DNA from: Amanita rubescens
Lineage: Eukaryota > Basidiomycota > Agaricomycetes > Agaricales > Amanitaceae
DNA length: 64,000 nucleotides
Reading direction: 5' to 3'
Assembly: GCA_015039365.1 (NCBI GenBank)
Contig: WION01000026.1
Span: 186,001 to 250,000, forward strand
This document shows, one piece after another, positions 5,988-62,735 of the stretch (the first letter of the stretch is position 1; each line of letters opens with the position of its first letter). The notes below the pieces were generated by a model. It saw only the letters and a list, made by a program, of their open reading frames with translations. It was not told where the DNA came from and ran no database searches. Position numbers and translations under genes: made by a program.

Positions 5988-8892
5988 GTTTCGAACTTCC
6001 TCGGTGGTTGGACCTTGAGATGAAACTATCATGTTTTTCGTGACATCCTTCATTCTTGGCCGTCTCAACGCCTCCCTCTCCCAGCAGCGCTGAATCATGC
6101 TCCATGCGCTCTCGCTCAAAGGCGGGTCATTGAGTCGAGGCGGATGTTCTCCTCGGAAGTGGAGGCCTACAATTTGTAAATCCGTTTTACCGGCAAATGG
6201 TATACTATCATAATGTATCTACAGAATTCAGATGTGTACCAATGTATCTATTGTGACTCACTTCGTAAAAAAGACATCCAAACGCATAGACGTCCGACAT
6301 TTGTGTCCTTGCAGGAGTATCCGAGTCATCGGAATCGACTTCATCAAAGTTTCCGAATAACTCGGGGGCTGCGAAGTTGAGGTGTTTTGCTCCTGTTTGC
6401 GTGGTCGTAGCGTCCGAGAGCCGCGTCAATCCAAAGTCAGCGATTTGAACACGAATATTTGAATCCAAGAGAATATTGTCCTAAAAGATATATTTAGCAT
6501 TTCTCCAGCGCGCTTCTCAAGCAAAATACCCCGCGAAGGTCGCCGTGAACCGCGCCTACGGAATGAATATATTCAATGCCCTGGGCCACTTCCAGTATCT
6601 TTGAGGAAAGTAAGTGTCAATGAAGTGCCAAAGGTAGAAAGGCCATACACGCTCTTCGATCTGGGCAACTGATGGATTTGTTTTCTTCCGCCATTGGGCC
6701 AGAGTACCGTTCGTCATATAGGGCGAGATAAGGAAAAATTGGGTTGTTCTTCCACTGCCAAATTCATAGATTCCATGAAACGGCAGCACGAACTTGTGCT
6801 TGAGAGAGCCCCACATCAACGCCTCTCGACAAAAGGCCTGTTATGCGAACATCAAGAATGGACTCGTGACAACGGCAACGCGAACGACCTACAACGTCGT
6901 TGTCAGACTTGTACAACACTTTCAGCGCTACGGCTGCCCCCTGTAGTTCGCCAACGAAAACGCGCCCGAATCCCCCACTGCCAATGTATTCGCGCTCGGT
7001 CGCCATGCTGACCCCTGTTACAATCAAAGACGGGGGTATAATAGGCATCTTTGAGTTAAGTTTGAACATCAATCGTCTAGCTCGCTCATTGTTGTCTATG
7101 GTTGGATCCGAATTGGACAAGCGACGGTCGCGAAGCAGGTGAAGCAATAAGTCCAACAAGTTCTGGACGTCTGGGGCCTGGCTTAGCTGTTCCGCAACAC
7201 TGAGATAGTCCTCTCTGGATAGGATTCTACACACGAGATCGATGATGGATGCATTGACGACGGATGTGATGCAAGAGCCGGGCTAGGAGCTCTTTAGTAC
7301 TATATGGGTGCACTTTCTGATGTTGCCATACCTTCCAATCCTTAAGAATGAAAAACAGAGATAGGAGGGGATGGCGGTCTGGATCAGACATCATCCTTTC
7401 AGCGATATCTCTTATTGCTGGTCGTTCTGACGGCATCCTCGCCCAGCACAATCCGATCAACTCCCATGCTTCATCTTTCAAGGGCGGGTCATGCAGGCGA
7501 GGCGGACGTATGCCTTGAGAGACAAGGGCCATGACTTTTAAGTCCTGTTTACCGGCAAAAGGCATGCTGTCATAATGGATCTGCATAATTCAGCAAGAGA
7601 ATCTACATATTAATCATAACCTACTTCGTAATAGAGACATCCAAACGCATAGATGTCCGACATTTGGGTCCTGGCTGAATCATCAGCTGCTGAAGGGTCT
7701 TCGCCGTCCTCGAGGCGTCCAAACAACTCCGGGGCTGCAAAGCGCGTATGTTTCATTCCAGACCGCGTATTTGTCGCATCTGAGAGTCTGGTTAACCCAA
7801 AATCCGCAATTTGAACATGAAGATTGGCATCAAGGAGGACGTTCTCCTAAAGAAAATGATCAGTATCTCAAAATAGCACGTTTCCAGGTGGAGTACCCCA
7901 CGCAGATCACCGTGAAATATGCCTTCTGAATGAATATATTCGATGCCCAGAGCCACCTCTAGTATCTTCCGGAAGGGTGAGATCAACGGTGAGTCAGTTA
8001 AAGAAAATACATACGCGTTCTTCTATCTCGGATAGTGATGGATTTGCTTGCTTCCGCCACTGAGCTAGCGTGCCCTTCTCCATATAGGGAGAGATGAGAA
8101 AGGCAGTTCCACCTTCGTGTTCACCGATTCCCAGGAATGGCAACACGAATTTGTGCTTGAGCAATCCCCACATCAACGCCTCTCGACAAATGGCCAGCTG
8201 GAACCGAAATAAAAGGTTGCGTTATAAGAACGACACGTTGGACTTACAGCATTATTATCAGACTTGTACAATACTTTCAACGCAACGGCTTCTCCCTTTA
8301 GTTCGCTCCTGTAAACGCGCCCAAACCCACCACCGCCAATATAATCTTCCTCTGAAGGCTTGTTGACTCCCGTCACGATTAAGGACAATGGTATGACCGG
8401 CGTCTTTGATATGATTTTGAATATGAATCGCCGTCCTCGCCCGTGGAAGTCGACCGACTCATCCTGATAATTTGGTAAGAGACGATAGCGAAGCATGTGA
8501 AGTATGAAATCGAGCAGAATTTGGGAGTCCGAGATACGATCGATCTTGCCCGCACCGCTGAGGTAGTCTTCCCCAGATAACAGCTTGCACATGAGATCAG
8601 TAGTGTTTGCATTTACGACAGACGTGATAGAGGATCCGGGCTACCAGGCCTTGAGCAGAGTGAACATGCACTTAGAAATGCTAATCACCTTCTTAGCATT
8701 GAGTATAGAGAGAAGCGATGGGAGCGGATCGCTCTCAAGAATATTGTAACTGCCGCTCCAACTTTCATTTCCGTCAGTCAGTCCTTCCTTTGCTTCTTCC
8801 GAGTCCAATGCGCCCATAAATTCTCGTTCTCTTAGCACATCCCTATACGTCCCCGTAATCGCCGCAGGAGCGCCACTGAGGGGATCATTCAT
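5988..8892 (-). CDS. Protein with two tandem serine/threonine kinase domains (TKL-like)
   Basis: Eleven exons: 8892-8689, 8640-8248, 8197-8015, 7965-7897, 7846-7625, 7580-7332, 7282-6893, 6837-6649, 6598-6530, 6480-6262, 6218-5988. All have phase-0 borders and introns of 43-56 bp. The first exon codes for a short N-terminal leader (MNDPLSGAPAA). Unit 1 has GGGGFGRVY, VALK, HGDLRGENVLL, DFGLTR, AAPELFG and SDIYAFG. Unit 2 has GSGGFGRVF, VALK, HGDLRGDNILL, DFGLTR, AAPELFG and SDVYAFG, so both look catalytically competent. The exon ending unit 1 (LFFILKDWK) splices in frame to the exon opening unit 2 (PGSCITSVVNA), exactly as the leader exon (LLSILNAKK) splices to unit 1 (PGSSITSVVNA). The 3' end beyond 5988 is uncertain: either a stop ~30 bp on, or further exons to about 5,500. 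A related single-unit gene lies at 59.3-60.7 kb. Confidence 0.85.
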
Positions 8893-9399
8893 TGTCGAGC
8901 TGACCGGAGTCAAAGGGTGCGACGGATGCCAAGGAGAAAGCTCGAGTTATTCTCGAAGCGCGACGTGCTCAGAGAGGTTCTCAGCCGGATAACCCGTGAC
9001 CTCCCAGCCGTTACAAGCGGTAACGTACTTCACGCCAATTTCTGGAACGCCCGTCCGTTCCCTCAGGCTCATATTTCCTCTCGATTCCTCACCGATTTAT
9101 GGTTTTCCCCCACCACGACAAACACACAAATTCTGACACTGTGATACCGTGTTTTATCGTGGTTCATCAGTACCGTTATCGATGCCATCAGGTACTCATG
9201 TAGTCGTCAATTGATCGGTGGGTTCTGTGGTACATTAAAACCATACTTAGCTGAGCACACACAGCATTTGGCCGCCATCGTGGTCCATCAGCACTGTCTA
9301 GTCACTGTGTCGCTCATCCTCGGCTGAACGCGCCCACGGTTCTGTGGCACTATTGCTCGCGGTCCCACTGGTAGTTTCCCTTACCTTGCACGGTAGGTT

Positions 9400-10660
9400 C
9401 CCCAGCACCATTGCATGGACGCTGATATATCCTCCCCATCGTTCGCTATCTCGCCCAGGTTCGCATTCCCTAGGGTTCTTTAGAACCGTTCGCCACGCCT
9501 CCGCCTGCGGTATTCTTACACCAGCGCCTCCGCGGTTTTTTAGAATCGTTCGCCACCCCGTCGCCTGCGGTATTCTTACACTGGTACCTCCATGGTCTTT
9601 GAGAACTGTTCCCCACACCCTCGCCATCTTACACCAGCACCCACGCGGTTTTTGAAAACTATTCCCCAGCCCTTCCCCGCGGTTTTCTTACACCAGCACC
9701 ATGGTCTTTGACAACCGTTCCTCACGCCATCGCCTGCGGTATTCTTACACCAGCAGATCGATAGTTTTTTAGAACCGTTCCCCACACCCCCGCCTGCGGT
9801 TTTCTTACACCACACTTGTAGTTTTCGAGAACCGTTTTCATGGCCCTGCCCACGGTTTTCCTACACCAACACCTACACAGTTCTTGAGGACTGCCCCCCA
9901 TACTCCCGCCCGCGGTTTCCTTACACCAGCAAACCTGTAGTTTTTTAGGACCATTCGCCACTCCTTTTCCCGTGGTTTTGTTACACCAGCAGCTCCATAG
10001 TCTTTGAGAACTGTGCCCCACGCACTTTCCCGTGGTTTTCTTACACCAACAGACATCTAGTTTTTGAGAACTGTTACCCACCCCTTCGCCCGCGGTTTTG
10101 TTACACCAGGAAACCAATGGTCTTCGAGAACTGTGCCTCACGCACTTGCCCGTGGTTTTATTACACCAACGGATTCATAGTCTTTGATAACCGTTACCCA
10201 CTCCTTTGCGGGCGGTTTTGTTACACCAAGAATCAATGGTCTTTGAGAACTGTGCCCCACGCACTTGCCCATGGTTTTCTTACACCAACGGATCAATAGT
10301 CTTTGAGAACCGTTCCCCACCCCTTTGCCCGTGGTTTTCTCACACCATTACACCAGTACCCCGATGCCAGTTCTTGAGAACCGTTCGTCACCCCTCACTC
10401 GTGGTTCTCGTACACCAGTACCTCCACAGTCTTTGAGAACTGTTCCCCATTCCTTCACCTGCGGTGTTCTCATACCAGCCCACCCATAGTTTTCGAGAAC
10501 CGTTCGCTAGCCCTTTGCCCACGGTTTTCTTACACCAGCACTTGATCCCAGTTCTTGAGAATTATTCGCCACCCCCTCGGCTGCAGTTTTCTTACACCAG
10601 GAACCCAATGGTTACTGAGAACCATCCCTCACACCTGCTCACGGTTTTCTTACACTCTAC
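9400..10660. repeat. Left tandem array, ~60-bp unit, about 20 copies
   Basis: Copies of a ~60-bp unit recur with very regular spacing (cttaca at about 9514, 9574, 9628, 9687, 9743, 9804 and onward to 10,650). Each unit has two related half-motifs, ggttttcttacaccag and agtttttgagaaccgtt, about 30 bp apart. Older, more diverged copies extend left to about 9,095. Open frames on both strands across the array are by-products of the 60-bp (multiple-of-three) period, not genes. Confidence 0.9.
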
Positions 10661-10706
10661 CCAACCTCATTTATATTCATCTACGCAACTCGCAGACATA
10701 AGATGG

Positions 10707-13054
10707 TTAAAAACTGCTGAATTCATCCGATGGCCCCGGCACCTTCATCTCCCCATCGTCTACAAGCATCAATTTGGGTCTGTCCAGCCTCGTCGCTACT
10801 TCATTGTACTTTTCCATAATGCGTTCCAGCTGTTTATAGAGCATCTTCTCCTTGTGCTCGTACGGTGAAATGTTTTTATCACCAGTGTAAAGGTCGTCAA
10901 TAGTTAAGCATGCCATGTCTTCAATGGCCTTTATCATAAAGGCACGTACCCTCGGCGTCAAGCGTTGGTCTCCCATTGACTCCGTGACCTCTTTACCGTC
11001 AACAACACCTGTTATGGTCAACGTCTTCCATAAATACAAGTCCCACAGGCCAGCATCAAGGCTGCAGCCGCAGTTCAAGTAACCTTTACGGACGCGAGCA
11101 TTTCTAAACTGCCCATCCGGTCGGAACAACGACTTTTTCTTTTTAAGCTTTTTGATAGTTTCTGGCGAGACCGTTTTTCGAGGAAGTGGGACCCCGTTCA
11201 ATACGAACTTTTGTCCTGCCTTGCCATCAACTATTTTTCCGCCTTTATCAATTGTGTGGTGGTAGGGACAGAACACATTGAATTGCTGTGTCGTAAGGCA
11301 CTCCAACGCTAGTTCTCGACTTGTTGCGCCTGCCTCAGGGACCACCGACTGATTTTCACGGATCAGGCGGCGAATATGTACATCAATCTGCGTCTCGAGC
11401 GGGTCGATCAAGAAGCGACGAACGGCTTTCTTCGCTTCATCTATACTCCACTGTGAGAAATAGACTGCGAAAGCCGTATGTCTACTGACCCTCTTTCTTA
11501 CGTTTCTTCTCCTCATCCAGATCACGGTATTTCACATCCTTAGCTGCAACTTAAAATCAACGACGACTTGTTTATTTTCGGCAATGATACATACTTTTTT
11601 TCGCATTTGTTTTTCCTTCCTTCGATGTATCCGATTCACCACTACTGCCAGTCTCCAACGATTCTTCGTCGCTACTGTCCTCGTCCTCGTAGTCAGTTTC
11701 GCTTTTCTCTGAAATTATAAGTTAGATAGTGGGAAAGACCTGTGATGGGCAGACACGTACTAGTACGCTTTCTCAATTTCTTTGATTTCCGCACTCGTCG
11801 CTTGCGCTTGCGCGATCCTTTCTTTGATGACACAGGCTCCGAGTCCGAGTCCGAGTCATTTGTGCTTTCATCATCTTCACTATGATCGGAGTCTGATTCA
11901 CCTGAGGAAATGTCTTTCTTCGATCTGGATGCTTTGCCCTTGGACCGATTTTGACGTTTTTTCTTGTTGCGATGCACACGCGCCGGGCCGCCTTCATCAC
12001 TATCAGTATCTGGTGCCTGCTTGCGCTTATTCTTCTTGTCAGAGCCGTCATGCCGTTTAGCTGCAGCAAGCGATAACGCTTCTCCAGTCGTAGCAGGAGC
12101 AACCAAGTCAACTCGAGGAGTCTCGGCAACTGGTGTAGACGGTTGAGGACCCGGAGTGATATCGTGCTGTGGCTTTTCTCCAGTCGTAGCAGGAGTAATC
12201 GAGTCAACTTGAGGAGTCTCGACAACGGGTGCAGACAGTTGAGGTCCCGGAGTGGTATCGGGCCGTGGAGCCTGAATGTCCACCGGTGAAACCAAGTCTC
12301 TGGTTTCAGACGCAGAAAAAGCAGCTGGAGGTTTCTGACTAGGAATGGGTTGCGGGGGATGCAGACCTGGTACATCAGCCCCGTCTATGATGTCGGGTGC
12401 ACAATGCTCAGCCTCGGCACCTGCAAGTGCCTTTCTGGGCTCAGACGGAGCAGATTCAACAACGGGAGTTTGAGCAGGGGCGCAAATCAACATCTGAGGT
12501 ACCACAGGGATGCCAGGTGTCGACATTGATGTCTCAGCAGGGGTATTGGAAGTATTCTTGTGAGTGTTCAAGATACCGTTGGCCTCCGTTGAACTAAGAG
12601 CTTCAGGCGCAGCATATTGCGTAACGAACAAGTGAGCTGCTTCAGAATCTTGGCCGAAACATGCAATCAGGTCTGCTTTATTATCTTCGATGAAGTTCCA
12701 TGCAACTGTCATCACGTCATGTGTCCTGGCTGCCTCACGAAGAGCGGCAATTTCCCCAAACAAGTTGTTCTTCCAGCGTGCAAAATCGTTCAATTTACGC
12801 TTGGGTACATCTGCCACCAATTAAATACTCTCAGTTGAGGTATGCCATCCTTCATAAACATCGTACATCATACCTTCAGGACGCTGAAACTCATTGATAG
12901 CTTTCGTCGCTTTTTCTACCTTTTTAAGTTCTTTTTGACATGATTTAAGAGCACGAGAAACCGCTAAGAAATGGACAATTAGAGGTGAAAATCTTTTGCG
13001 ACATGATTTACCAGTTGGTAATTTGTTCTCTGTGGTATTCAAGTCCTTTGGCAT
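10707..13054 (-). CDS. Transposon accessory protein, basic and S/T/P-rich, unknown function
   Basis: Exons 13054-13012, 12963-12874, 12810-11761, 11708-11595, 11543-11502 and 11464-10707 join in frame to 699 codons (698 aa); introns are 48, 63, 52, 51 and 37 bp. A start further upstream near 13,170, through one more intron, is also possible. The N-terminal ~100 aa is helical (FIEDNKADLIACFGQDSEAA). A ~200-aa P/T-rich middle carries a duplicated tract near 12,100-12,290. It is followed by strongly basic nuclear-localisation-like stretches (RKRKRRVRKSKKLRKR) and acidic runs. The C-terminal ~250 aa is globular with Cys/His (CPYHHTIDKGGK, GYLNCGCSLDAGLWDLYLW). I do not recognise it. Position and orientation between the left array and the transposase suggest an element-encoded nuclear protein. 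Confidence 0.7.
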
Positions 13055-13169
13055 TGGCACGGTATTGGGGACGTCTAAAGGCTTGTTACTTTTTTCACTG
13101 CAATCTTATGTTTATCCCCCCCATCAACGAAAACCTATGACGTTTTGTCGGCCGATGCCAAACCATTAC

Positions 13170-14099
13170 GCGTTTCAAAGCACTGCCAACTAATCCATGT
13201 GACGGTCCCATTCCAAATGGAATATCCGAATATGCAACAAGTCATTGGTCAGGAATCAGGATAATCTTTTCTTTTGCGATCAGGCGCTCAAACCTGCTCA
13301 AACACGGTTTGACATCAGAAGTGGATCCTGACAACTGAAGCGGAATCATTCAAACACGGTTCGACATATAAAGCGGATCCTCAGGCTGTCGGATAAATGT
13401 AAAGATTACAGCTTATCAAATTCCTATCAGAACGGTAACCACTGATCCATCAACATTAGACATGACACACAACAGCACCTGTTGACTCATCATGTTCGCC
13501 TGTATATAGCCTTATATAGCCTATCATCTAGCATTATTATTAGAGGGAGCCAGCTATTGAATAGTGCCAGAGATATGCTAGCAGAGTGAAATAGATAACC
13601 TCGTTGTCGAATTCTCTCTTTGTCCCTCTCTTTATGCTCTCTTTACGTTCTCTTTGTCCCCAGCCTAAACTAGGAAAGTACACGTGCAGCGCCGACCTTC
13701 CCCTTTTGGGCTCTGGAACGCAGGTGGTCTCGATCGCTCCATCGTCAGTGCCACTCAGGAACCCTTAAACTAAACTAGGAAGGTACACGTGCAGTGCCGA
13801 CGGGGGCTGGAGGAGGTGATGGTGATGCGGGTCAGCGGGTGCGGGTGCAAGCCGCAGTTGGTGCTGTCTATGGACTTTGAGAGTTTTCTAGCCGTCCCCC
13901 CTCGCCTGCTCCTAGCAGCGTGCCTGATGTGGCAACAGCGTTTGAAGAGGCCCAAGCTGCCGGTTTAGTCAATACTGTAGTCTAGACTCTAAGTAGTGCA
14001 GTGTGCCCTTTTTGTCGTACTTGTACTAATTCATCAGCATCCCCACTCAAAAATATATGTATGTCATATGAAGTTGTGTCATTTCCTATTTCGACTTCC
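13170..14099. other. Gene-poor stretch with short direct repeats
   Basis: No gene supported. It has two copies of a ~37-bp repeat (taaactaggaaagtacacgt, at about 13,667 and 13,770) and two copies of a shorter motif around caaacacggttygacat (13,303 and 13,350). A C/T-rich tract lies near 13,610-13,660. Confidence 0.6.
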
Positions 14100-14830
14100 C
14101 TACTGCTGGTACATGAGTTGCCTGTTCGTGTGCATGTCAGAAAGCTCAGCAATATCTATCATGGCATAGCACAATATCTCCTCGAGCCCTTTAATAACCA
14201 AATCAATTTTCTGTCGCAGTTCCTGAGTCGAATATAGCTCTTTCCCTACTCCTGCGAGTTGCAGAATGTTGTCTTCACACCTGATTAGGTTGTTCTTCAA
14301 TCGTTCCATATTTGTAAGGGCATGTTCGAGTACAGTTTGATCTTTCTTGGCAATATAGTCGATGCACATGTTTTCGAGGTACACGTTGGCTGACGGAGTC
14401 GCTAACGAAAGGAACGTGTTATAGACACTCTGAGCCTGCTTTTTCCAATGTTGGACACTTTGCAGACTTGAATGATCTCAGGTGACACTCAAAATGCGAT
14501 GGCGAAAATACTACGCACGGAGATTGGTTGCTGGTTGTCGGAAATATGTGGTCGACTATCCCTGGCAGGGGTAAACTTGGGCTACAGTGACAAAAAGAAC
14601 GATGGAAAGATATAAAAAGATCCGAAGGAATAACATACCGAGTTTCCCAGTATTTACTTTTTCGCCGCGCCCGTATCTTCGTTTTATTCCTAGATTCATG
14701 TAAATGAGCCTCAAGTTTTGATACAGAAATTGATTGGTGCTTGCTTTTCGTAGTACCGTTTGCTTCTTTCTCGCTCTGCAGCTTTTTTATCTTCCAGGGT
14801 GTGGTGAAGTTGAGGACGAGGCATGTTTCG
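14100..14830 (-). CDS. Transposon accessory protein, small, helical
   Basis: Supported exons are 14466-14100, 14581-14519 and a 5' exon ending at 14639; phases agree (2, 2). The N-terminal part carries a basic RARRKSKYWETR segment. Near 14,830-14,730 (minus) there is an ATG-led frame, MPRPQLHHTLEDKKAAERER, that looks like a real N-terminus but could not be joined cleanly to the next exon. The C-terminal ~120 aa is helical (NVYLENMCIDYIAKKD, NMERLKNNLIRCEDN) and ends at 14100. Short proteins starting with an MPRPxLxHT motif and a charged coiled region are, from memory, common in Agaricomycetes. Function unknown. It sits between the other two minus-strand genes of the island. Confidence 0.5.
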
Positions 14831-15361
14831 AGTCAAGGAGCTTTAAAGTTTAGACGCATCTGTGACCTAGTCCTTGCATTCGTCTCACGTTTACTCACAG
14901 GCAGTGTTTCCTCGCTGCTACCTCTATGATACCTTGCATTTTTATTGAATATCATAACAACAATTCATCTAATACAATTTAAGACACTTGAATGCGCTGA
15001 TTATACACACACTGGGTAAGTGCAGCCAGTGGTATGTGCATCGGGAGTTCGGACTGGTCCCACATGTGCTTCTTCTTCCTTCAAACCAAACTGAGCGCTT
15101 CAATGGCATTATGGCAACAGTAAGTGGGTCCCTTGCTCTTGCCAAACAACACTATACTACTAGTCTATGCGGTGCGCAAGATATGGAGATGGCAAAGGAA
15201 ACGGACAAACTCGGTTGCATTGCCACAGATAAGAATAGAAATATACTAAAAATAGGTGATGTGCATCATTCCTCGATCACGCATCAAAAATCTAACGGTC
15301 CTCTATTACTCGGCAGGATCGCTCATCCTATCTGACAATAATATTGTCACTACCATAATTT

Positions 15362-16247
15362 CTACCCCGACACAGAAGGTCCAGCAATTCCATGCTGTGC
15401 TAGTAATACTAATGCTTCTGTCAGCTGTGCTTGCTTTGCAGCAAGAGTTGCCTGAGCATCGACGGCTGACTCCTCTGCCTCTACCAGTCTCTTTGCCATT
15501 TCAAGAGCTCCCTGACGCTTCGTGACCAGAAGAGCTCGGGTTATAGAATGAAATTGGTTGATCAAGGAAACCGTATCTTCTTTGGCATCCCTTCGTAAGC
15601 TTGAGGAGGTGAAATGGGTTGCAGACGACCCAGCGTTCCCATGTTGTGCCATCACAGCAAGCCAACAACCAGTTTCTTCGGATAATCTTTCAGCCTAGCC
15701 CAGTCATTATTTTGCGAATCAGAACCAAAATAACTAATGATACTTACTCGAGCAATTAGTGCGCCAATCTCACGATGGAATCGTTTTGTTGATGCGGCCT
15801 GGTCTTCCATTCGCTTGCGTAAGGCCTGAGGACGTATAATTTCTGTGAATCTTGTCAGATATGGGTATATCACATCATTGAAAGCTGACCGAGTTTTTTA
15901 CTACCGCGCATTGCGCCTCCCACGAAGCCCCAAGCAGGATTTTTTTTCGTCACTTTAGCCTTTTTACGAGCAAAAGAAGAAAAGACAGTAGGTGAGCGCA
16001 GAGGAGATGAAGGAGGCAGGCTTGATAGTCCATCCGTTCTTTCAAACAGACCAGGTGACGACATGGGTGTCGCATCAATCCCAGAAAGACTACAGGGATG
16101 TTCCTGGCTTCTGCTAGGTGTGATAGGTGTTGCGTTTCCACACGTAAATGATGAAATCAGAGATTGCTGTGGCGTCAGATGCTCCAGGAGTTGTTGAATC
16201 GAAAGCTGACTTTGCTCATTCGCGATTACAGGCACAGCAGGGGCCAT
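15362..16247 (-). CDS. Transposon accessory protein, S/P-rich N-terminus with helical C-terminus
   Basis: Exons 16247-15890, 15842-15748 and 15694-15362 give 261 aa; introns are 47 and 53 bp and phases are consistent. The first ~100 residues are Ser/Pro-rich (PSRSQEHPCSLSG, SSLPPSSPLRSPT), with a basic patch (FARKKAKVTKKN) and GGAMRGSKKLG. The rest is helical and Ala/Glu/Lys-rich with heptad-like spacing (EMAKRLVEAEESAVDAQATL) and two copies of a short AQHGxAG motif. The start is the ATG at 16247. About 500 bp separates it from the divergently transcribed transposase gene, so they may share a promoter region. Function unknown. Confidence 0.6.
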
Positions 16248-16763
16248 ATGAGACGAAAGACTGTCAGAACCCTAGTATGAAACGATATTGAGTAATGACA
16301 ATTGTGAGTAGTGCGAAGCGTGCCTGCTGCCCTAGGGTTGGGTTTAAGTCCTGTCTCCGAGTCGTCTCTGACTCTTCTACAGTTGCATCATCTGTCGGTC
16401 TCGCCTCTAACCCTTTTTTTTCATGGCTTTTCTGGAGCTAGCGTTCGTGTTACCCCTAGGTGTCGTGCTATACAACAAGGACTCACTTCAAGGAATAAGT
16501 GGCCTGCCTTGGTGTGAATGCACTGTGACAGGGGAGGTCTGTCTGGACATTGGTTACAATACCGCACGCGGCCTTGCTTTGGGGCCATGCTGGAGGTTGC
16601 GAAGGGGAACGGTTGAAGCGGCATGTACTGCCGCACCTGATCAAAAGAATTTGAAAAAGAGACAAAAATAGGTACTTCGGCGCTTTCGGTTTAGGAACCG
16701 GGAAAACATGTCCCATACTATGTTTGGTAAGAGAGAATAGATGGAAATCCTCTTGGAAACGCT

Positions 16764-19700
16764 TTGATGATGCTGGGCTCGTTTGGCGCTTTCGGAGCAA
16801 CGGGTTTAGACTGTTTAGTGAGAGTATGGTTCTGCGTCATGTCTGGCATGGAAATTCGCTTGCAAACACCTCCTGCTTCACCTGTGCTGTTGTCGCTGGA
16901 TGACCTTCCATCACCCGAGTCAATTATACAAAAGAATGTAAAAAAGCAGTCATATACCATCATTTCTCCACAAAAGAAGCCTCGGCACCCTGGCACCGGT
17001 TCTAAGAAAAGCCACCAGAAGCGCACAACTGACACATTTCAAGCAGGTGATGGAGATGATAGCTTCTATGGCGCACATCCTGTAGACGATGACTCGTCAC
17101 AATACAGTCTAAATTCAATAGATGGCTTACCAGAAAGTTCAATCATCGGCCACCCATCAGCGATATCTCCCACCGCCTTTGACGCAACAGACTCCGATGA
17201 GTTGGAGTACTACACATATGTGGAATCGGTCTTGGACTTTGTGGCTGGCTTGTTTCAGGTATCGGCAACGGTGTTTGTGGTTCAAGGCTGGGATATGAAA
17301 AGAGCATCAGCTACAGTAAGTTTCAAGGTGATTTCAATTCATACATGCACCGTGACTCATTCCTGGACCTTTGAAAGACTTCATGGTATCATCTTGAACG
17401 TTTGGTGATAGAAAACAAGGCCGTTATCGTCTGTTGCTGTCCACAAGGGAATATCCATAGAGAAAGGCATTGTGTCCATGTGAAATTCGTCCAAGAGTAC
17501 TATGGAACGGAGCATTTGCCATCCACAAATCAACGTATGCGAGATTTCATGAAACGATGATCATATAGCGGCTGAGGACTGACGCGATGCTAGTTGACAA
17601 CCTGCCCAAACCTGTCGTCATGTTTTCACAAGATATAGGGGATAATCAGACAATAACGCACCTATTCTCCGTTTCTACATTTGGCCAACGCTCCATCAAA
17701 TACCGGTCGATTGTTTATCATGTAGGATCAGCCGATGGTGCAGGAGCATGGACATGCAGTAGGGACGGAAATAGCCAATGTGTGCACATCTCCAGCGCAA
17801 GACACCATCTTCAGAAGCTCGTACATGCAGACCCACATGCGCGGGATCCACTGGCACATTTGCTGCCAGAGCGTGGTACGTGAGCACTGCCACTTGTTTG
17901 GAGATGGTTCTCAAGTCCTAATATGGCAGTTGATCCTGGTGTACGCACCGTCAATAATACAAGTATCACCAGAGTCGCTATTTCGCATCGTCCCATCCTA
18001 CCACCTATCTGGGCAACATTGCCTACTGATCCACATCTTTACAAGCGACCAGTGGCCTCCTTCACTGTTCCCGACCGGATCACATTGGATGCAGATGCGC
18101 GATGTATTTGTGGTGCTTCGAGGGTGCCAGATAACGGGACTGTGTTCCTTCCTTGCAAAGTTTATGGGTTGACCGCGGTCCATACCTGTGAAATTGAACT
18201 TCAACCTTGCAATACCTGCCCCCGCGCGTATCGTCGATATGTTGGTCCAGATAGCCGAGAAAATGGAATCTTCAACTGGAACAATAAACTTCTTTTCACC
18301 CACGATCTCTTAGACGACTACACCGCTTCGTTCACATCATCTGAAACTCCATTTACTGCATGGATGAGCGTGGTACAGAGAAGATACATACGATATGCTT
18401 CACCTGAGCCATTCGTTCGCCGCGATGATGTTTTTTTGGCGGCTTGGTTTGCCTACAGCAATGTTCAGGCGATGGATGGCGATATGAGTTGCCCGGGGTG
18501 CGGGCCTACTCCTGACAACGTGATTTGGGATGGAGTAAGCCTCTCTTTTCATCGCAAACACCTCCTCCCTACCTTACGGCCTCCAACGGTGGTGAACGAA
18601 AATTCTTTGGAGAGAGAGAGCAAACGCATCTCGCAATCGTTGATCAAGTCCGCAGAAGTCCGCCGCAATATGCAGAAAGTCATTGATGCAGCTGGCACCA
18701 CCAAAGGCGAAGCAATACTTTCACTCGGGCAACTGACAGACCACTTTGGACTAATACAGGCGACTACCAGCGCTTTGAGGGAAATAAATCAAGAGCTCGG
18801 AGAATACTTCAATAGCCACTATGGCATTGAGATGTTAGCGAGCGAGAGAAGGCCTAGTTCAGAGATTTCCCAGCTTTTTCGACAGGTACGTGGAACATGT
18901 AGCTTTACATCAATCTGGTTCTTATCCCGGGTATACTACAGATCGCAGCCGACGACTCAGTTCTACAGATGATAACGATCTCATCAAGGAAGCTTCTAGA
19001 AGAGTTTGTTGAAAATCCGTCGCCGGTGACAGTATCGCCTCTCATCACTATACCCGCCATCTACCGCGCGCTCCGATTTGAAGAGCAGCATCATAAACAA
19101 TCATACTCTGCACCACTTATTGCAATCTGCCGGTGGATAGCGAATAAAGCCAAAAGCATTCTCGAATCGATGTTATCAGACACAGCACCCGGCATAGATC
19201 TCACGGCTATGGCGCTTTCCAATGATTGGAGAAAGGTACGTCATTGTCGAGTCGTTCATGCACAAGCAAAGTTTCTGATTGAACGAGGTGCAGACGGGTA
19301 CTTGCTATAGCATGCCACAAATCCGCCACAGACCAAGGTACCCGAAGCTCAAGGATGATAACGTTGGCGAGAGCGACGAGCGGGGTGGCCAATGCTCAAA
19401 ATACTATTGGCAGTATAGCCAAAGACGATTGACAGGCGGCATTATGTGTGCATGGTGCACACATAGCATTTGTTATGGGTTTCACTGCATTCCCAGAGGC
19501 GAAGGGCGTAACGATGTTTTTTCAGCAATGATTACGCGATGGCCCAAGGCTCCGAAACGCGTCATATATGATTTTGCATGCGCGCTGGGTCCCTACTGCA
19601 TGACGCGTGAATCGGACTTTTTCGCTGACACCATTTTTGTAGTAGATGACTTCCACGCAAAGGGTCATACAAAGTGCTCAGCAGCGTCATTCCTCAAAAC

Positions 19701-19890
19701 ATATGCCGAACTGGACCCGCGCTTACTTAAGATCAATTCCAGTGCAGCTGAGTGCGGAAATGGAGGAATTGGACGCATCCGTAAATCAGTCAGTTACATG
19801 ACCCAGGGCCGGGCGATCCTATACACAAAAACTTTCATTTCAGTTTGGAATCGTATAATGATTCGCAAGCAACTGGGGATGGACAAGTAA
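16764..19890 (+). CDS. KDZ-type transposase with cysteine-cluster (CxC) domains
   Basis: Multi-exon plus-strand gene. The 3' structure is secure: an exon ending 18885, then 18942..19235 and 19288..19890. The 5' exons (about 16,764-17,260, 17,405-17,540 and 17,590-17,880) are only outlined; the start may be ATG 16764 or 16839. The N-terminus is S/P-rich and acidic, then come zinc-binding-like stretches VCCCPQGNIHREGHCVHV and WTCSRDGNSQCVHI. The middle has a CxC cluster (RCICGASRV, PCKVYGL, CNTCPRAYRRYVG, CPGCGP). The C-terminal ~200 aa is the highly conserved block GGIMCAWCTHSICYGFHCIP, RWPKAPKRVIYDFACALG, VVDDFHAKGHTKCS, INSSAAECGNGG. Such blocks are known from fungal proteins annotated as CxC clusters associated with KDZ transposases. 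It may itself be the transposase or a close derivative. No frameshift in the 3' half, so the copy may be young. Confidence 0.75.
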
Positions 19891-19914
19891 ATAGTGTATT
19901 ATGCAATTTCATAC

Positions 19915-20830
19915 AAGAATAAACCATAGCTGGGTAGGGTTGAAATGGTACACAAAAACTATAACTGAGTGGTGGTGCAAAGAAACCATACCCGAGTGAG
20001 GCTGAGATGGTGCAAGAAAACTAGAGGCATTCGGCGGTGCGAGGAAACCATACCCTCGCGAGGCTGAGATGGTGCGAGAAAACTGGAGGCAGTAAGTGGT
20101 GCGAGGAAACCATAAGCAAGCGAGGTTGAGATGGTGCGAGAAAACTAGAGGCATTCGGTGGTGCGAGGAAACCATAAGCAAGCGAGGTTGAGATGGTGCG
20201 AGAAAACTATTGCTGGCCACTGGTGCGATAAAACCATACCCGAGCGAGGCTGAGATGGTGCGAGAAAACTAGAGGCAGTCGGTGGTGTGAGGAAACCATA
20301 CCCGAGCGAGGCTGAGATGGTGCGAGAAAACTAGAGGCATTCGGTGGTGAGGAAACCATACCCGAGCGAGGCTGAGATGGTGCGAGAAAACTAGAGGCAG
20401 TCGGTGGTGCGAGGAAACCATAAGCAAGCGAGGTTGAGATGGTGCGAGAAAACTATTGCCGGCCACTGGTGCGATAAAACCATACCCGAGCGAGGCTGAG
20501 ATGGTGCGATAAAACTAGAGGCAGTCAGTGGTGTGAGGAAACCATACCCGGGCGAGGCTGAGATGGTGCGAGAAAACTATTGCTGGCCACTGGTGCGATA
20601 AAACCATACCCGAGCGAGGCTAAGATGGTGCGAGAAAACTAGAGACAGCGGTGGTGTGAGGAAACCATACCCGAGCGAGGCTGAGATGGTGCGAGAAAAC
20701 TAGAGGCAGTCGGTGGTGCGAGGAAACCATAAGCAAGCGAGGTTGAGATGGTGGGAGAAAACTATCGCCCGTCGGTGGTGCGAGGAGACCATAGCTGGGT
20801 GAGGTGCGAGAAAACTATTAGTGTTGGAGC
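19915..20830. repeat. Right tandem array, ~61-bp unit, about 14 copies
   Basis: Unit: gaggaaaccatacccgagcg, then a gaggctgagatggtgcgaga core and an aaaactagaggcagtcggtg tail. It is repeated every 60-62 bp starting 25 bp after the transposase stop. There are two sub-variants (caagcgaggttgag and cccgagcgaggctgag). The two half-motifs gtgcgaGGAAACCATA and gtgcgaGAAAACTA are the inverted equivalents of the left-array half-motifs (ggttttcttacacc, agttttttagaacc), so the arrays are inverted relative to each other. Confidence 0.9.
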
Positions 20831-21594
20831 ACCATCCAAGCAGGAAGTGTCGGAAACGATAGACGGGCGGGCGGCGGTGAATGGAAACCACCAGCTTTGG
20901 AGTGCTGGAATACCGTCGAGGCAACTTGTAAATGGCAGACCCGGAAGGCAGGGCGCAACCGACTACGGCTTAACGACTAGTACGGCCTGGTTCAACCAAG
21001 GCGGGACCTAATCCGCGCAGGGGCTGGCACCTGATCCGGGGTGGCACTCACTTGCGGCGAGCAACGGGAGGTGGCAGAAGGGGAAACCGGGGAGGCGAGA
21101 TATGGTGCAGGAGTACCGACTGGGATGCTGGACCATCCATGCGGGGGAGGCAGTAGTGTACAAGTACCAAGCGCCTAGGCGACGAAGTTGGTAAAAACTA
21201 CGTCGTTTCAAAAGAGTGAGAGAAGTCACGTGCTCTAGGGAACGACCGTCTGTTCCTGTCTTTAGGTGGCAGTACGTGTCCGTTACGAACGTCCTGTCAC
21301 TCGCGTCCTGCCCCTTCTCAGCGCTTGATCGTGTGAATACATGGACATATAGATGGTGGTGAAGGCGATAAACATGAACCCAATATTGTTTGGACAATGA
21401 TCGGTTCACGGGCCGGTTCACCGACGCCACCACATTTTGAACCTTTCTCATTAAATAAAGCTAATTTTTCGACACCAGCGTTAAATCGTTGCATAATTGT
21501 GGGGGTTGACGTAGCCTGCTAATGCAACTTGGGAAAAAGGCCCATTAGATCCAATGGACTAGCTATATGAGCGCAACTCAGCAGTCCTGCTCCC
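20831..21594. other. Right flank of the transposon island
   Basis: No gene supported. GC-rich and degenerate, it may contain the outer end of the element. Open frames on either strand lack family signal. Confidence 0.5.
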
Positions 21595-21692: not shown

Positions 21693-23042
21693 CTACTCAG
21701 TGGTATTTCTGCGACTTTGAATCTGTATAGCACCGTGAAACAACGAGACCTTCCCTTTCCTTTGCCACCCTAATGGCTTCGCTTCGCTTTCACTCGCTTT
21801 TGCATTAATACGTTCCGCATATGCACGCAGTCCCACCCACTCATCTCCTTCGAGTGTCAAACCTCGATGCTCCAAATAACCCAAGACCGGCCAGAGCGCA
21901 CAATCCGCAACTGTGAACGCATCCCCTGCAACATATTCATGCTCCCGCGCGTAGGTCTCCCAAAACTTCAGCTCTCGCATGGTGCCCTCGAGGGACTCCA
22001 CGATCTCCCGCTCATACGCAGAGTGATCCTCCAAGAAGAGATACTCGAGCCCTTCACAGACGTTATGCAGGTTCTCGCTTTCCTGCACACGCTGAATGCA
22101 CTTTGTATACTCCACCTTGTTTTTGGCACACGGCATGAATGGGTTAGGGTAGTACGTGTCTAGGTACTGCAGGATGGCGATGGACTCGATGATGGTGGTC
22201 CCATCCGAATCGACGAATGTGGGCGTCTTGCAGCGCGGATTGATAGCGGCGAATGCGGGGAGGCGAGTCTCTTTCGGGTCGGTCATGACGCGGAGCCGAC
22301 GAGGGTTGTACGCGATGCGTTTCTCGGCTAGGAGAAGCTGGACGCGCCATGACGGAATGGAGCCGTTGACATAGTACAATGTCGGTAGAGTAGAGTCGAA
22401 GAGAACTTCATCGAGGTCGCGATGGTGAGTGAGGGAGCCGTAGTGCGTTGAGATAGCGTCCAGCGCAGATGTGCCAGCGGTGGAGGAGGTGGGGGCGACC
22501 GCAGACTTGATTACGTTAATGGAGTATTCGTGAAAGAAGGCGTCTGTAACTGTAGCGCGAACACAGGTCGTGGCTGTTACACCCGCAAAGAATAAGGTAT
22601 CGACGTTCAGAGCTTGGAGAGTTTCGTGCAGAGCTGTATCTGTGAAGCCCGAGTAGTAGGTCTTCGTTATGACCGTATCATTTGGGCAAATAAGCAGCTG
22701 TATATCTGGGTGGAACTCTGCGCCTGGAGATCCAGGGTGACAGAACCGCTTCGGGCCATGATGCGAACCAGCTAGGTGGGCGCTGTTTAGAGGCACATTG
22801 ATGTATTTATCACCATCTGGGCGCGTCAAATGCTTTGGAGGAAGAGGGTTATCTACAGCCTGGTATTCGGAACGAATCCAGACGATGGGAAGCTGTCGGC
22901 GCCTGAAAGAAATGACACTTGAGTGCAGATTAGGGAGAAGGTGTGGGTGCGTAGTGGCAAAGTCTCCTCGAGTCTTTCCAAGGAGAAAGTCCGGATGAAG
23001 AAAGTCGTTCTGCAAATCTACGAGGATCAATGCAGGCCTCAT
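21693..23042 (-). CDS. Isochorismatase-like hydrolase fused to glutathione S-transferase-like domain
   Basis: Single exon, 449 aa from ATG 23042 (an in-frame start at 23156 would add 38 residues that look unrelated to the fold). Residues ~1-215 are a cysteine-hydrolase domain: ALILVDLQNDF (catalytic Asp), VITKTYYSGF (Lys) and AGVTATTCVRATV (nucleophile Cys), i.e. the Asp-Lys-Cys triad. Residues ~225-435 are a GST: thioredoxin-like LYYVNGSIPSWRVQLLLAE, the glutathione-contact ESIAILQYLDTYYP, and a helical C-terminal half (FTVADCALWPVLGYLEHRG). A linker with a DLDEVLFDS motif joins them. The fusion suggests one polypeptide that hydrolyses an isochorismate-, nicotinamide- or ureide-like substrate and conjugates or reduces a related compound; the substrate cannot be read from sequence. 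The absence of introns and the frame integrity suggest a functional gene. Confidence 0.9.
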   Translation of the reverse strand: MRPALILVDLQNDFLHPDFLLGKTRGDFATTHPHLLPNLHSSVISFRRRQLPIVWIRSEYQAVDNPLPPKHLTRPDGDKYINVPLNSAHLAGSHHGPKRFCHPGSPGAEFHPDIQLLICPNDTVITKTYYSGFTDTALHETLQALNVDTLFFAGVTATTCVRATVTDAFFHEYSINVIKSAVAPTSSTAGTSALDAISTHYGSLTHHRDLDEVLFDSTLPTLYYVNGSIPSWRVQLLLAEKRIAYNPRRLRVMTDPKETRLPAFAAINPRCKTPTFVDSDGTTIIESIAILQYLDTYYPNPFMPCAKNKVEYTKCIQRVQESENLHNVCEGLEYLFLEDHSAYEREIVESLEGTMRELKFWETYAREHEYVAGDAFTVADCALWPVLGYLEHRGLTLEGDEWVGLRAYAERINAKASESEAKPLGWQRKGKVSLFHGAIQIQSRRNTTE

Positions 23043-23267
23043 AATATCAAGAAATGGGAGCCTGGAGGAAGGGACGAGGTTACCGTAACGGTTGGTTGAC
23101 TCGAGTGTTGATCCGTTGATCACAACAAACAGATACAAACAAGGTATAAGAGGCAACTCCGGATCCGGGGAAGTGGCGTGCAGCAGGTTTAGAGTGGTTT
23201 TCTTGGATGCGCTGGTGTAACGTGGGGCCGTTCCATTATATGACAGCTTTATAAATACAAAATAGAA

Positions 23268-29041: not shown

Positions 29042-31519
29042 TCAAGCTTCCATCTTCATGCACACGATGCCCTTCTGAGCGTCCGGTCTCCTCTTCCACA
29101 ACGCCTCGAATTTATCTGCATCTTCCTGATGAACCTCAATCTTTAACCAATCCGGCAAGCTGCAAACCCAGCCTTTACAACGGGTTGTTGTTGGGAATGT
29201 GGTTTGTCCCGGCAACTTCCACGCCCATGTCGTGATTTGGTCGAACGCTTGGCCTGGGGGTACTGTGTTATCCGAGATAGGGCCAAGACGGTAGAGGGAT
29301 AGACCATTTATCTTTCGACGCTTGACTCGGAATTCACGATCCAATGTGGAAAGTAAATCTGTATCTTCATCGTCCGATTCGTCCCCGGATTCTGGGGCAT
29401 CCAATAATGGTTTCACTTTGCTCAAGCCTACCAAATAAAGCTCCGCTTCCCCGTTAGTGCTATCCTTACTAGTTCCGACTACTATGTTTCGCTTCTTGAC
29501 TTTGTCGTATTTATACCCCCTCTCGCCCACGTATTCTAAGGTCCGTTTAAGACCCGTTCTGCCGTAAGATAGTCAGTGCCACATCCTCTGTAGGCGAGCG
29601 TCCATTACTCACCGCTGAGTCGGTGAGGGTTTATCCGACAACCGATCTCCCACATATCTCTCCAGTATGACGGCGTACGGCATATCGGTGTTTGATAAAT
29701 CGACGAAAAACCCATACAGGGAGGGAATTTTACACCTTTGGGGGTCATCCATCAGAGAACGGAATATGCATGACTCGCGCTGAAGCTCCTGTACATTATC
29801 TTGGCCTTGAGCAGTCTTCACAATGACGCAATCGGCAAAAGTCTTTCCCTTCCACTTCACGGTGCCAATAAAAATACTGCGGTCGTCGTTGATGATGGGC
29901 CTGATCTTGATTTCCAGGCCAAAGGAATTTTGCTCCTGCGGATAGCGCTTGTACAAGTTCATACTGTACTGTGACCCGCTGCCTTTTTTCGGGCCCAAGC
30001 AAAGCTCCTGACATTCAGATAATATCTGTCCCACGTCGACAGGTCCCATGTCCGGTTCGTCGTCCTCGATGCGGTAATGCCTTTCAGTATACGTTGTCCA
30101 AGACAAAGGTAAGTTGTTTTTATCTTCGCAGGCTTTCAATCGCGCGGCACGATCTATGGCATCCCGAATGGAGGCAATAAACAGGCCGACCAACATCTGG
30201 ATATAACCAGGCTTAGTAGTGAAAATGGGATCGCCCAGATATAGCACTTTCTCAGCACGATTTCGTGCAACTATCATATCGATATTGCCGCAGCTGAGCA
30301 CCAGAAATGTCGCATCGTTCTTAACCATCTCGGACCATATCTATTTGAATTCAGCAAAGCCTGTATAAATGATAACCAATTTTCACCTGTTGGAGAATGC
30401 GCTTGGCAGACGATCTATGATCATCTTCCAGGTCGACCGCTGGCTTCGTCCAATTGGCCGCTTTGAGTTGGACAATAGGATTTGCGGCATCAAAACCAGT
30501 CCTGCTGCCTGTCACCCGAAAATTAATCTTATCACGCTCGCAAGTCTGGCGGTCGCATTCTTCCCAGTGAACATCATCATCGCAAGTCATTTCAAGTATC
30601 GCGATCATGTGTTCGTAACTCCCGGCTAGAAGATTCTTGAACTCGTAAAGCGTGACGCAGGGGAAGTAGCGAAATACATCTTTCAGTTCATTCATTGACG
30701 GATCATCGCAGACGGGGCAGTTGAACATCGACATTTCACCCTGAACTGCAGTTTCCCCCAAGGGCGGTCTTCTGTTCCCCTGGTCTACAGGAGAATAGGG
30801 ACAGTCGTGGTGAATGCTCCCAGGTGGCGGGAAATCGAGATCTACGCGCAATGCAGCATCCGCGATGGCCTTATCCATTGGCTGCACTGTTGACCATTGC
30901 ATGTACCGCGTCCACCAAGAAGGCGTCTCGAACGCAAGTGCAGAGACTATAGGCAAGATGGTGTCCGGTATGATCTGTGCATAATGCTGGAGGATGCCAT
31001 TTTCGACCTTAACCGTAGGGGCTCCATATCGGTACAATGCATCTCGTACAGCGGCTGGATCGGTGCTGTCACATTTAGGCGGCGGTCCAAATTTCTCGAT
31101 ATATTTTTGGTAGTATCTGTCGGCGATTTCTTCTATCTGCAGATTTAGGCCTGGACAGTATGCAACTTTCGCGGGTCTCAAAAGTTTGTCAAGATGTTTA
31201 TCGTAATAACCTGGTTTCCGAGTTGAACGGGATGGTGTATGATCTTTCGCAGCTTTGTACCCTGGTATACCGAGCTTGAATATCTTCCGTACATCGTCGG
31301 GGTCACCCGGTTTATACGCGCGCAAATAAGATGGAATGATATCATTATCAACTTCCATCGCAAACAAGTGTAAGCGAATTTTCGTATTTCTCAAAAGAAT
31401 GAATTACCCATTGAGACATCCGAAGCCTCGTCGTTGCTTCTGTTAGAGGTAACAGAGTCGTCTTTCTTGGCTGCAGAGCTAGCAAGCGGTTTTTTGGTGC
31501 GGCGCGACGGACGCGACAT
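29042..31519 (-). CDS. Kinase-like family member A (truncated kinase lobe, alternative C-terminus)
   Basis: Exons 31519-31408, 31351-30387, 30340-29613 and 29558-29042 give 773 aa with consistent phases. A basic N-terminus (MSRPSRRTKKP) leads to the family N-domain (YYDKHLDKLLRPAKVAYC, TILPIVSALAFETPSWW) with a CPVCDDP...C-rich insert and a CDDDVHWEECDRQTC cluster. The second block is TFLVLSCGNIDMIVARNRAEK. A kinase-like N-lobe follows (CVIVKTAQG with the Lys; PYAVILERYVG). It then stops at the hinge: no catalytic loop, no metal-binding Asp. The chain instead continues into a ~170-aa domain with LYLVGLSKV and GWVCSLPDWLKIEV. Member D (49.7-52.3 kb) has the same plan, so this is not a fresh truncation. 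Likely catalytically inactive; function unknown. Confidence 0.8.
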
Positions 31520-32626
31520 TTTCTTTCGATAAATTTATTGAGTTGTCGGCGGAAATACCTGTTTACTTGCAATAATCAGATCCTACGAGTTATATCGACG
31601 AATGCGAAGGCGTACAAAGATGTTGGATTAAGTGGCGACATACAATCGCCATGCGGTGTCTTATACATCTTTGGCCTACGAACCGGGGACGGGGAACAAT
31701 AACAATAACGCTAACGCAGCTTGTTCCTTTTCCGAAGCTGAAGTGAAAAGCTGGAGAAACCATGGTTACTCTGTAGATGTGTGATCCGAGAACGTCGTCG
31801 TTGCTACAAGCAAAGAACAGTCAGAACGGCACGTATCATATCTTCTCCCGTTTTGGAAAGTGCCAGTGAAAACGGTTTCAGAAGCGTGCCTAACCTTGTG
31901 AGGAGTCGTCAAGTGAATAACACTTAGCCATACTGGGACAAACAACTAGGACAACAAAAACACCCACGGACCCACAACTGAACATTGCTGCTGGCGCAAG
32001 TACTTATGGCTGATGACGAACCATAGAAAGTGACATCTGGGCAATACCTTCTGTACTGACTTGAATCAAGCTGGTAAGACTTAGACGACTGTGTTCTAAG
32101 ACTCAAAAGAAACGGAATCAACCACTGCTACATTCGGACCACAAAGGCAATTCACAGGGGAATGGTGCCTAATTCACGACATCCAGTTAACAAAGACCTG
32201 CCAGCACCCTTGTCTGAACCATCCTCCAAATGGGAAGATTAGTCGGAGCAAGAGTCACGAGTGCCGAGACGGGACAATTGGAATAGATTCCTGATTGGGG
32301 TTGTGCAGACGCTTATAGTCACTATAGTACGATTCGCCGCTGTCATAAATCAAATAATTGCGATGGCGATTCAACCGAGTCCACATGTCAAACATATATG
32401 TAGCGACCTTGGGAAAAGAGAAGCAGATAAATTATTGTGACATTTGGCATTTACATGTCGATTGGACATCTTGCTGAAACCGTTGGAGAACATGATATAA
32501 TGGAATTCCCTTGCAATAATGCCAAGAGGTTGGCGTTTTTTCGCACCAAAAGCTAAACCTAGTTAAGGGGTATACATCGGTTTATGCAGGGTATATGCGG
32601 TATACAGTTGCAAAAGCCGCGTTTAT
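31520..32626. other. Gene-free stretch with one dispersed-repeat arm
   Basis: No gene supported. 31,930-31,980 matches the ~45-bp terminal motif (caaacaactaggacaacaaa) of the inverted-repeat element at 52.57-53.0 kb, and weaker similarity continues ~60 bp inward. No matching right-hand arm was found. Confidence 0.5.
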
Positions 32627-34904: not shown

Positions 34905-35450
34905 GTTGCGGCTAGGTTGAATATAGCCGTAAACAAATTGAAACAGATGACCATTATGGGACGTCACATTGTCACGCGCCTCTTGGACTCCTCTTGGACC
35001 TCTTTACCTCCCCGAACTTGTCGGATCCAACTGCATGATTCGTAGGCTGAATTTCTATTCTCTGACACGTTTTAAATAAAAATTTTAAAATGGATCTCGA
35101 ATTTACCACAGATCTTGGGTGTTCCAGCTCCTCCCAGTTCCCCAATTTAGCCTTTTCGACTCCATACGCAGTGATATGTTATGCAATTTTGTAGAATTGG
35201 ACGTTAGGGTTTGCCTCCCTTGAACATGCCACGATGCCGGTATGTGGTCCGAATCTGTCTCAATGCTACGTTACGACTAATGAAAATAGACATCAAATGC
35301 AGGAACAGTTCAAACCAAATTTATAATGATGTAGAGCCTTGAGGAGCGGTGCGTTTCCCTCCTGTCTGATCTCTCTCTCTCTCTCTCTCAAGTTCGCTCA
35401 ATATATCTTCCAGCTAACTCAACGCCCGCCATTCTGGACAACACCTGGCC
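34905..35450. other. Intergenic promoter region between divergent genes
   Basis: Separates member B (minus) and receptor copy 2 (plus). It holds a (CT)n run near 35,370-35,388 about 70 bp before the receptor start, a common fungal core-promoter pattern, and AT-rich sequence at 35,060-35,330. No gene seen. Confidence 0.5.
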
Positions 35451-49544: not shown

Positions 49545-49680
49545 AACGTTTTTTGAGACGTGTAACTCATCAGTGCATCAGTTGGAAACTAGTAAATGTC
49601 ATAACAAGTGCATACAGAGGCTTACAGTCATAAACGTAAACGTTGAACGATAATTTTAAACTAGCAGCGCCGAGCAATCA

Positions 49681-62500: not shown

Positions 62501-62735
62501 ACGGTGGTATGCATATCTCTCATCGGCCATTGACCTGATCTGATTCGAGCGCCGCCAGTATATTTGAATTTCAAGTTGTTCTGAGTGCAAGAACTCGGAG
62601 AGCATACGGAAGCTGAATAAGGCTTATAGATGGTGATGTGGAGCGTTAGATTGTAGACGATTGTGGAGTACGGCGCACTTTAATGTTTGGCAAAAGCTAG
62701 CACGTTTGATAAATGTGACATGCGTGACATGCGAC

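Follow-up and report, generated by a model that had tools for sequence, protein, structure and literature searches.

A transposon of Amanita rubescens with a KDZ-type transposase and tandem arrays inside both ends

Introduction

The element described here has its closest relatives in the KDZ superfamily. In Cryptococcus, KDZ1 is associated with 8-bp target-site duplications and KDZ2 and KDZ3 with duplications of 4–8 bp (PMC12810828); nematode Zisupton has inverted repeats, and the account given in PMC9297572 records no duplications for it; for Marasmius, KDZ terminal motifs are given in a supplementary figure (PMC8290104). In the main text of the work on the Zisupton and Dileera lineages (PMC12730594, Kojima 2025) the word 'subterminal' appears 0 times and 'tandem' once, and the main text of the Cryptococcus work uses 'subterminal' and 'tandem repeat' 0 times. 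Beyond this superfamily, the subterminal repeats of En/Spm and the protein that binds them are described as poorly conserved and the transposase as conserved (PMC2613891). Here we describe a transposon in a 64-kb stretch of the A. rubescens genome (assembly GCA_015039365.1, contig WION01000026.1, positions 186,001–250,000; hereafter the window), which is part of contig C179 of the 75.7-Mb assembly searched. The element is mobile, is flanked by 8-bp duplications, and keeps the design of two subterminal tandem arrays while the array units change.

Termini and target-site duplications

The limits of the element were set by comparison with a second copy on the minus strand of contig C5, whose homology to the window is confined to positions 8986–21314 (12,329 bp) and whose flanks are unrelated on both sides. 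The window element is bounded by identical 8-bp duplications, TTCTCAGC, and the C5 copy by its own, GGAAATCA; the termini read CGGATAAC...CTGCCCC. A first-pass annotation of this DNA had placed an element of about 11.7 kb at 9100–20830 and had taken the arrays themselves to be its ends. Both proposals give way to this comparison, which puts the true left terminus 488 bp and the true right terminus 521 bp outside the arrays. The target-site duplications that the same annotation had suggested looking for were found. Across eight separate insertions they are exact in six (the window, C5, C777, of which C133 is the same insertion, C179:343936-350135 or C179b, C162, and C146:381737-388486 or C146b) and match at 7 of 8 bases in the other two (C13 and C46). 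Genome searches with 488 left and 514 right terminal bases gave 45 and 49 matches, respectively, of which the 20 highest-ranking from each search were extracted as loci.

From base 1 onward, contig C149 aligns colinearly with the window at 97.7% identity until its own contig end cuts it off, and it therefore appears to be the other allele. In the C5 copy an insertion of ~3.9 kb is nested at the site matching window position 9337, with ends CATCAACAAAA / TTTTGTTGATG and a 2-bp CA duplication.

Subterminal arrays and a directional motif

By Tandem Repeats Finder (TRF), the left array (9474–10635) comprises 19.4 copies of a 60-bp unit with 67% matches, and the right array has 84% matches (Table 1). 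The window holds eight TRF rows in all; the three outside both arrays have only 2.0–4.4 copies each. Among 22 representative ends, chosen by dropping near-identical loci, 17 have TRF arrays inside the terminus, covering 374–1121 of the ~1300 bases inward, and none of the 22 has one in its outer flank, of which at most 1500 bases, and at one end 115, were read. The distance from terminus to array is about 365 to 850 bp across elements. Unit sequence turns over fast among elements, and right-array length varies even between near-identical copies, with 13.3 units in the window copy and 16.3 in that on C5. Array position recurs between copies; the array units, whose conservation had been put forward as a check, change in sequence between related elements.

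The two arrays had also been described as inverted relatives of each other. This holds for the whole arrays, whose inverted alignment scores 35 against 21 for the direct alignment and a best of 30 in 100 shuffles, but not for their TRF consensus units, whose inverted score was reached by 601 of 2000 shuffles. What the arrays have in common is a 15-bp motif that runs in the same direction in both when read from the terminus inward, with a core of about RGTTNYCNNNCACCA in the window element's subfamily and spacings of 25–27 and 35 bp, or 60 bp. A weight matrix built from 26 sites in the right array of the window alone finds 19 forward sites and 1 reverse site in the left end, against a background of 3 forward and 0 reverse sites in the 51.5 kb of the window outside the element. 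In 16 of the 17 arrayed ends there are 6–34 forward matrix sites versus 0–1 reverse, and the sites are spaced mostly by 27 and 35 bp, by 35 bp or by 60 bp. Across the genome, the 35-bp-spaced motif pattern has 381 matches versus 167 for a reversed control.

Transposase, accessory genes and conserved gene order

The space between the arrays holds the CxC4/KDZ transposase that the first-pass annotation had recognized, with a CxC4 domain (PF18717) at 144.6 bits (cut-off 26.9). As that annotation also stated, the outermost genes stop within tens of bases of the arrays, gene A ~50–70 bp from the left one and the transposase 80 bp from the right one. Three accessory genes had been proposed: A and C could be modeled and are conserved, but B is less certain and, as judged from its matches, is not conserved, since these are confined to the copies in the window and on C5 and to relatives at 41% on C95 and C772. 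Pfam gave nothing above cut-off for gene A, gene C or the gene B exon scanned, and no TET/JBP family was recognized in A or C. The predicted fold of gene A is uninformative (predicted local distance difference test score, pLDDT, 37). The transposase is under purifying selection, as is the last exon of gene A, for which the ratio of nonsynonymous to synonymous substitution rates (dN/dS) is 0.21 relative to the C146 copy.

Two further features of the accessory genes were observed. A 96-bp two-copy tandem repeat lies within the coding part of gene A (12080–12268), and the gene B relatives (C95:54500-54826 and C772:45644-45970) have strong matches to another type of KDZ transposase at a distance of 2–3 kb.

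The genome is rich in KDZ elements (126 matches). Matches to the transposase itself occur on at least 20 contigs, and co-occurrence was counted with 50 of 58 candidates scored. Gene A is divergently placed in 13 of 20 transposase-bearing places, and genes A, C and transposase stand in the window's order, with A and C divergent from the transposase, in 12 (C179, C5, C201, C769, C54, C48, C121, C10, C77, C396, C363 and C266), bearing out the expectation that gene order is conserved between copies. Identity in these places falls to 34% for A, 42% for C and 45% for the middle of the transposase; several of them are alleles or near copies, so the number of independent events is smaller. The last exon of the transposase is 79–99% identical across most places, and the middle 45–98% there. 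The remaining eight places comprise C13, where gene A is partial and gene C is without a match; C133 and C777, with an internal deletion; C100, with gene C only; C44, C257 and C146:163127, which are fragments; and C701, with neither gene A nor gene C.

In C363:191038-253307 a gap of ~53 kb interrupts the transposase match of one diverged element, pointing to a large nested insertion. What may be left of a broken-up element is spread over C146:89445-163417, where 89.4–92.6 kb holds a left array and gene A (80%), parts of gene C occur at 104 and 122 kb, and a fragment of the transposase follows at 163 kb.

Diverged and non-autonomous relatives

Transposase copies without arrays, and arrays without the genes, were the two patterns that the first-pass annotation had set against its own proposal. 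On the first, array reading covered 11 of the 20 transposase-bearing contigs, and all nine that were readable on at least one array side have an array: on both sides in C179, C5, C13, C777 and C133, on the left, the only side read, in C769 and C201, and on the right, the only side read, in C54 and C10. The other two, C44 and C257, are fragments without an array. If arrays are part of the element's design, a diverged element is expected to have one after its transposase. This prediction was tested in two diverged elements and held in both, with units different from those of the window. In C54 (transposase 50% identical over residues 210–560, 82% at the C-terminus) an array of 75-bp units fills the 1.45 kb read; in C10 (52% over residues 317–560) a ~131-bp repeat is present in the 221 bases read, detected by BLAST at 90% over 93 bp, and TRF gave no row in those bases. 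The pentamer CACCA is enriched in both C54 and C10.

On the second pattern, arrays do occur without the genes, and where sequence was read they sit behind the same termini, which would fit non-autonomous relatives. The C777/C133 deletion joins window 8986–10655, plus extra array units, to 18158–21314. C13 has kept both ends and both arrays along with its partial gene A and a transposase match with stops. Three diverged elements, C179b, C162 and C146b, have exact duplications and subterminal arrays and no transposase match. A 13-copy family has a left-type array of ~490 bp, and 5 of the 13 have right-end-like sequence nearby.

Table 1. Features of the element in the window
Feature	Position	Strand	Basis
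Left target-site duplication, TTCTCAGC	8978..8985		Same 8 bp at both sides
Whole transposon, 12,329 bp	8986..21314		Limits of homology to C5 copy
Left terminal region, 488 bp; outer ~76 bp common to diverged elements	8986..9473		45 matches
Left subterminal array, ~60-bp units	9474..10660		TRF 9474-10635 and motif sites
Accessory gene A, 710-aa model, 5 exons	10707..13054	-	Gene model; syntenic relatives
Gene B, exon structure uncertain	14100..14824	-	Model less certain than the others
Accessory gene C, 261-aa model, 3 exons	15362..16247	-	Gene model; syntenic relatives
CxC4/KDZ transposase, 917-aa model, 6 exons	16848..19890	+	CxC4 144.6 bits; 216 homologues
Right subterminal array, 62-bp units, 13.3 copies	19971..20793		TRF
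Right terminal region, 521 bp; outer ~90 bp common to diverged elements	20794..21314		49 matches
Right target-site duplication, TTCTCAGC	21315..21322		Same 8 bp at both sides

Neighborhood of the element

Window stretches 6012–7295, 7386–8661 and 59385–60616 have related counterparts on C5 and C149 (~67–72%), and the element is inserted beside one of them; by eye, their open reading frames (ORFs) look like protein kinases. A set of minus-strand ORFs also appears, by eye, to be repeated (29609–35003 and 48513–51997): 29609–30340, 30351–31403 and 33894–35003 resemble 50140–50910, 50936–51997 and 48513–49577, respectively, and 62637–63752 resembles one ORF of the set. Beside the right end, the ORF at 21693–23267 appears, by eye, to join an isochorismatase-type domain to a glutathione S-transferase-type domain.

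Possible roles of the arrays

We favor, with a probability of roughly 0.65, the reading that the element is a cut-and-paste transposon of the KDZ superfamily in which the arrays, much like the subterminal repeats of En/Spm, serve as directional cis sites recognized by the transposase, by a fast-evolving accessory protein, or by both. The transposase, with its CxC4 cysteine cluster and RNase-H-like core, would cut at termini 8986 and 21314 and insert the element through an 8-bp staggered cut, a chemistry presumed from the family. The arrays would be rows of directional binding sites for an element-encoded protein, and we infer that they are bound and are needed for movement. Candidates for the binder are the N-terminal region of the transposase and/or accessory protein A or C, either of which may act as a reader as TnpA does for En/Spm. 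Many bound sites would concentrate protein at each end, bring the two ends together and lead the transposase to select its own element.

Several observations weigh against this reading. The motif was first picked by eye from the arrays themselves, and the C769 array, the exception among the 17 arrayed ends, has only 1 matrix site. Among the matches listed, the 35-bp-spaced pattern has none on C10, C54, C77 and C100, and C48 has a single one, far away; the motif itself is thus not kept in the most diverged elements. CACCA shows no enrichment in C146a, with 1 occurrence against 1.6 expected, and the left and right consensus units of the window element are not significantly alike. The terminal inverted repeats are weak and imperfect, the outer 100 bp of the two ends scoring 33 versus a best of 32 in 500 shuffles. 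The KDZ domain (PF18758) lies below the Pfam cut-off of 26.6 bits, at 19.1 in the spliced model and 22.6 in the last exon; in six scanned relatives it passes in P0045 (27.1) and P0053 (28.1), the other four scoring 17.7–25.4. Finally, arrays are missing from 5 of the 22 representative ends (C608, C781, C705, C468 and C44). C608 and C44 each represent a group of near-identical loci with common flanks and are therefore likely, though not proved, to be embedded fragments; arrayless C44 sits on a contig with a transposase fragment, and both C44 and C257 hold only such a fragment, ~4 kb from a rearranged right-end piece that lacks an array.

The arrayless ends, together with the difference in right-array length between near-identical copies and the fast turnover of units, would also be expected if the element were real and its arrays were passive satellites, generated by slippage or unequal exchange in untranscribed subterminal DNA and without a role in transposition. 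Such an origin is harder to square with the terminus-to-array distance class kept by diverged elements, the common motif direction at both ends, the placement of arrays just after the transposase even where its middle is ~50% identical, and the retention of both arrays in deleted copies, and we regard it as rather unlikely. That both outer genes point at the arrays and stop ~50–80 bp short of them raises a second alternative, in which the arrays protect the element's genes by terminating transcription, acting as insulators or giving rise to small RNAs, and transposition needs only the outer ends; arrays are, however, kept in elements without a transposase match, and the motif keeps a set direction with respect to the terminus, making this improbable. 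Chance capture of older host or foreign satellite DNA, which the genome-wide spread of the 35-bp-spaced pattern might suggest, is very improbable, as 8 of 8 clusters (at least 3 matches within 2 kb, picked by eye among the listed places on contigs C1–C118) adjoin independently found termini.

If the arrays are indeed cis sites, it is tempting to go further, and tentatively, with the odds somewhat against it, to suppose that Amanita KDZ elements independently reached an En/Spm-like two-part system in which a conserved DDE transposase is joined by a fast-evolving orphan, A and/or C, that reads fast-evolving, directional arrays. Array and reader would then co-diverge in each subfamily and set which transposase moves which element. 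End recognition by arrays could explain how many KDZ subfamilies coexist in one genome without cross-mobilization, and would add another system, after CACTA, in which protein–repeat co-evolution can be tested. The arrays also illustrate how a transposon can seed satellite-like DNA.

Comparison with known systems

No KDZ element with long subterminal tandem arrays was described in the titles, abstract openings and full texts searched, a body of literature that takes in few subscription papers, Repbase entries or supplements; we claim no priority for such arrays. The Kyakuja lineage, which has 7-bp duplications and termini of the form 5'-CA..TG-3' that lack inverted repeats, was considered and does not agree with the 8-bp duplication and the termini found here. 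As described in Kojima 2025 (PMC12730594), elements of the Zisupton and Dileera lineages are like this one in their 8-bp duplication, KDZ-type transposase and multi-gene fungal organization; a difference is that no TET/JBP family was recognized in A and C. Cryptococcus KDZ1, KDZ2 and KDZ3 are similar in size (~9–11 kb) and likewise combine KDZ with a CxC zinc-cluster domain, which in their case is CxC1 rather than CxC4 and is accompanied by terminal inverted repeats of 139–241 bp (PMC12810828).

The likenesses in end structure lie further afield. Galileo, of the P-element superfamily, has internal tandem repeats near its ends that hold extra transposase-binding sites, but these are situated inside terminal inverted repeats of 0.5–1.2 kb (PMC3688188), whereas the ends of the Amanita element are only weakly inverted-repeat-like. 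En/Spm, of the CACTA group, has subterminal repeats that act with TnpA as cis determinants, a role that the Amanita arrays may have, and likewise pairs a conserved transposase with fast-changing repeats and a second, poorly conserved element protein (PMC2613891). It differs in having a transposase of another family; the Amanita units, at ~60–130 bp, form arrays whose length reaches at least 1.44 kb, and the accessory protein that might bind them is our guess at a counterpart to TnpA.
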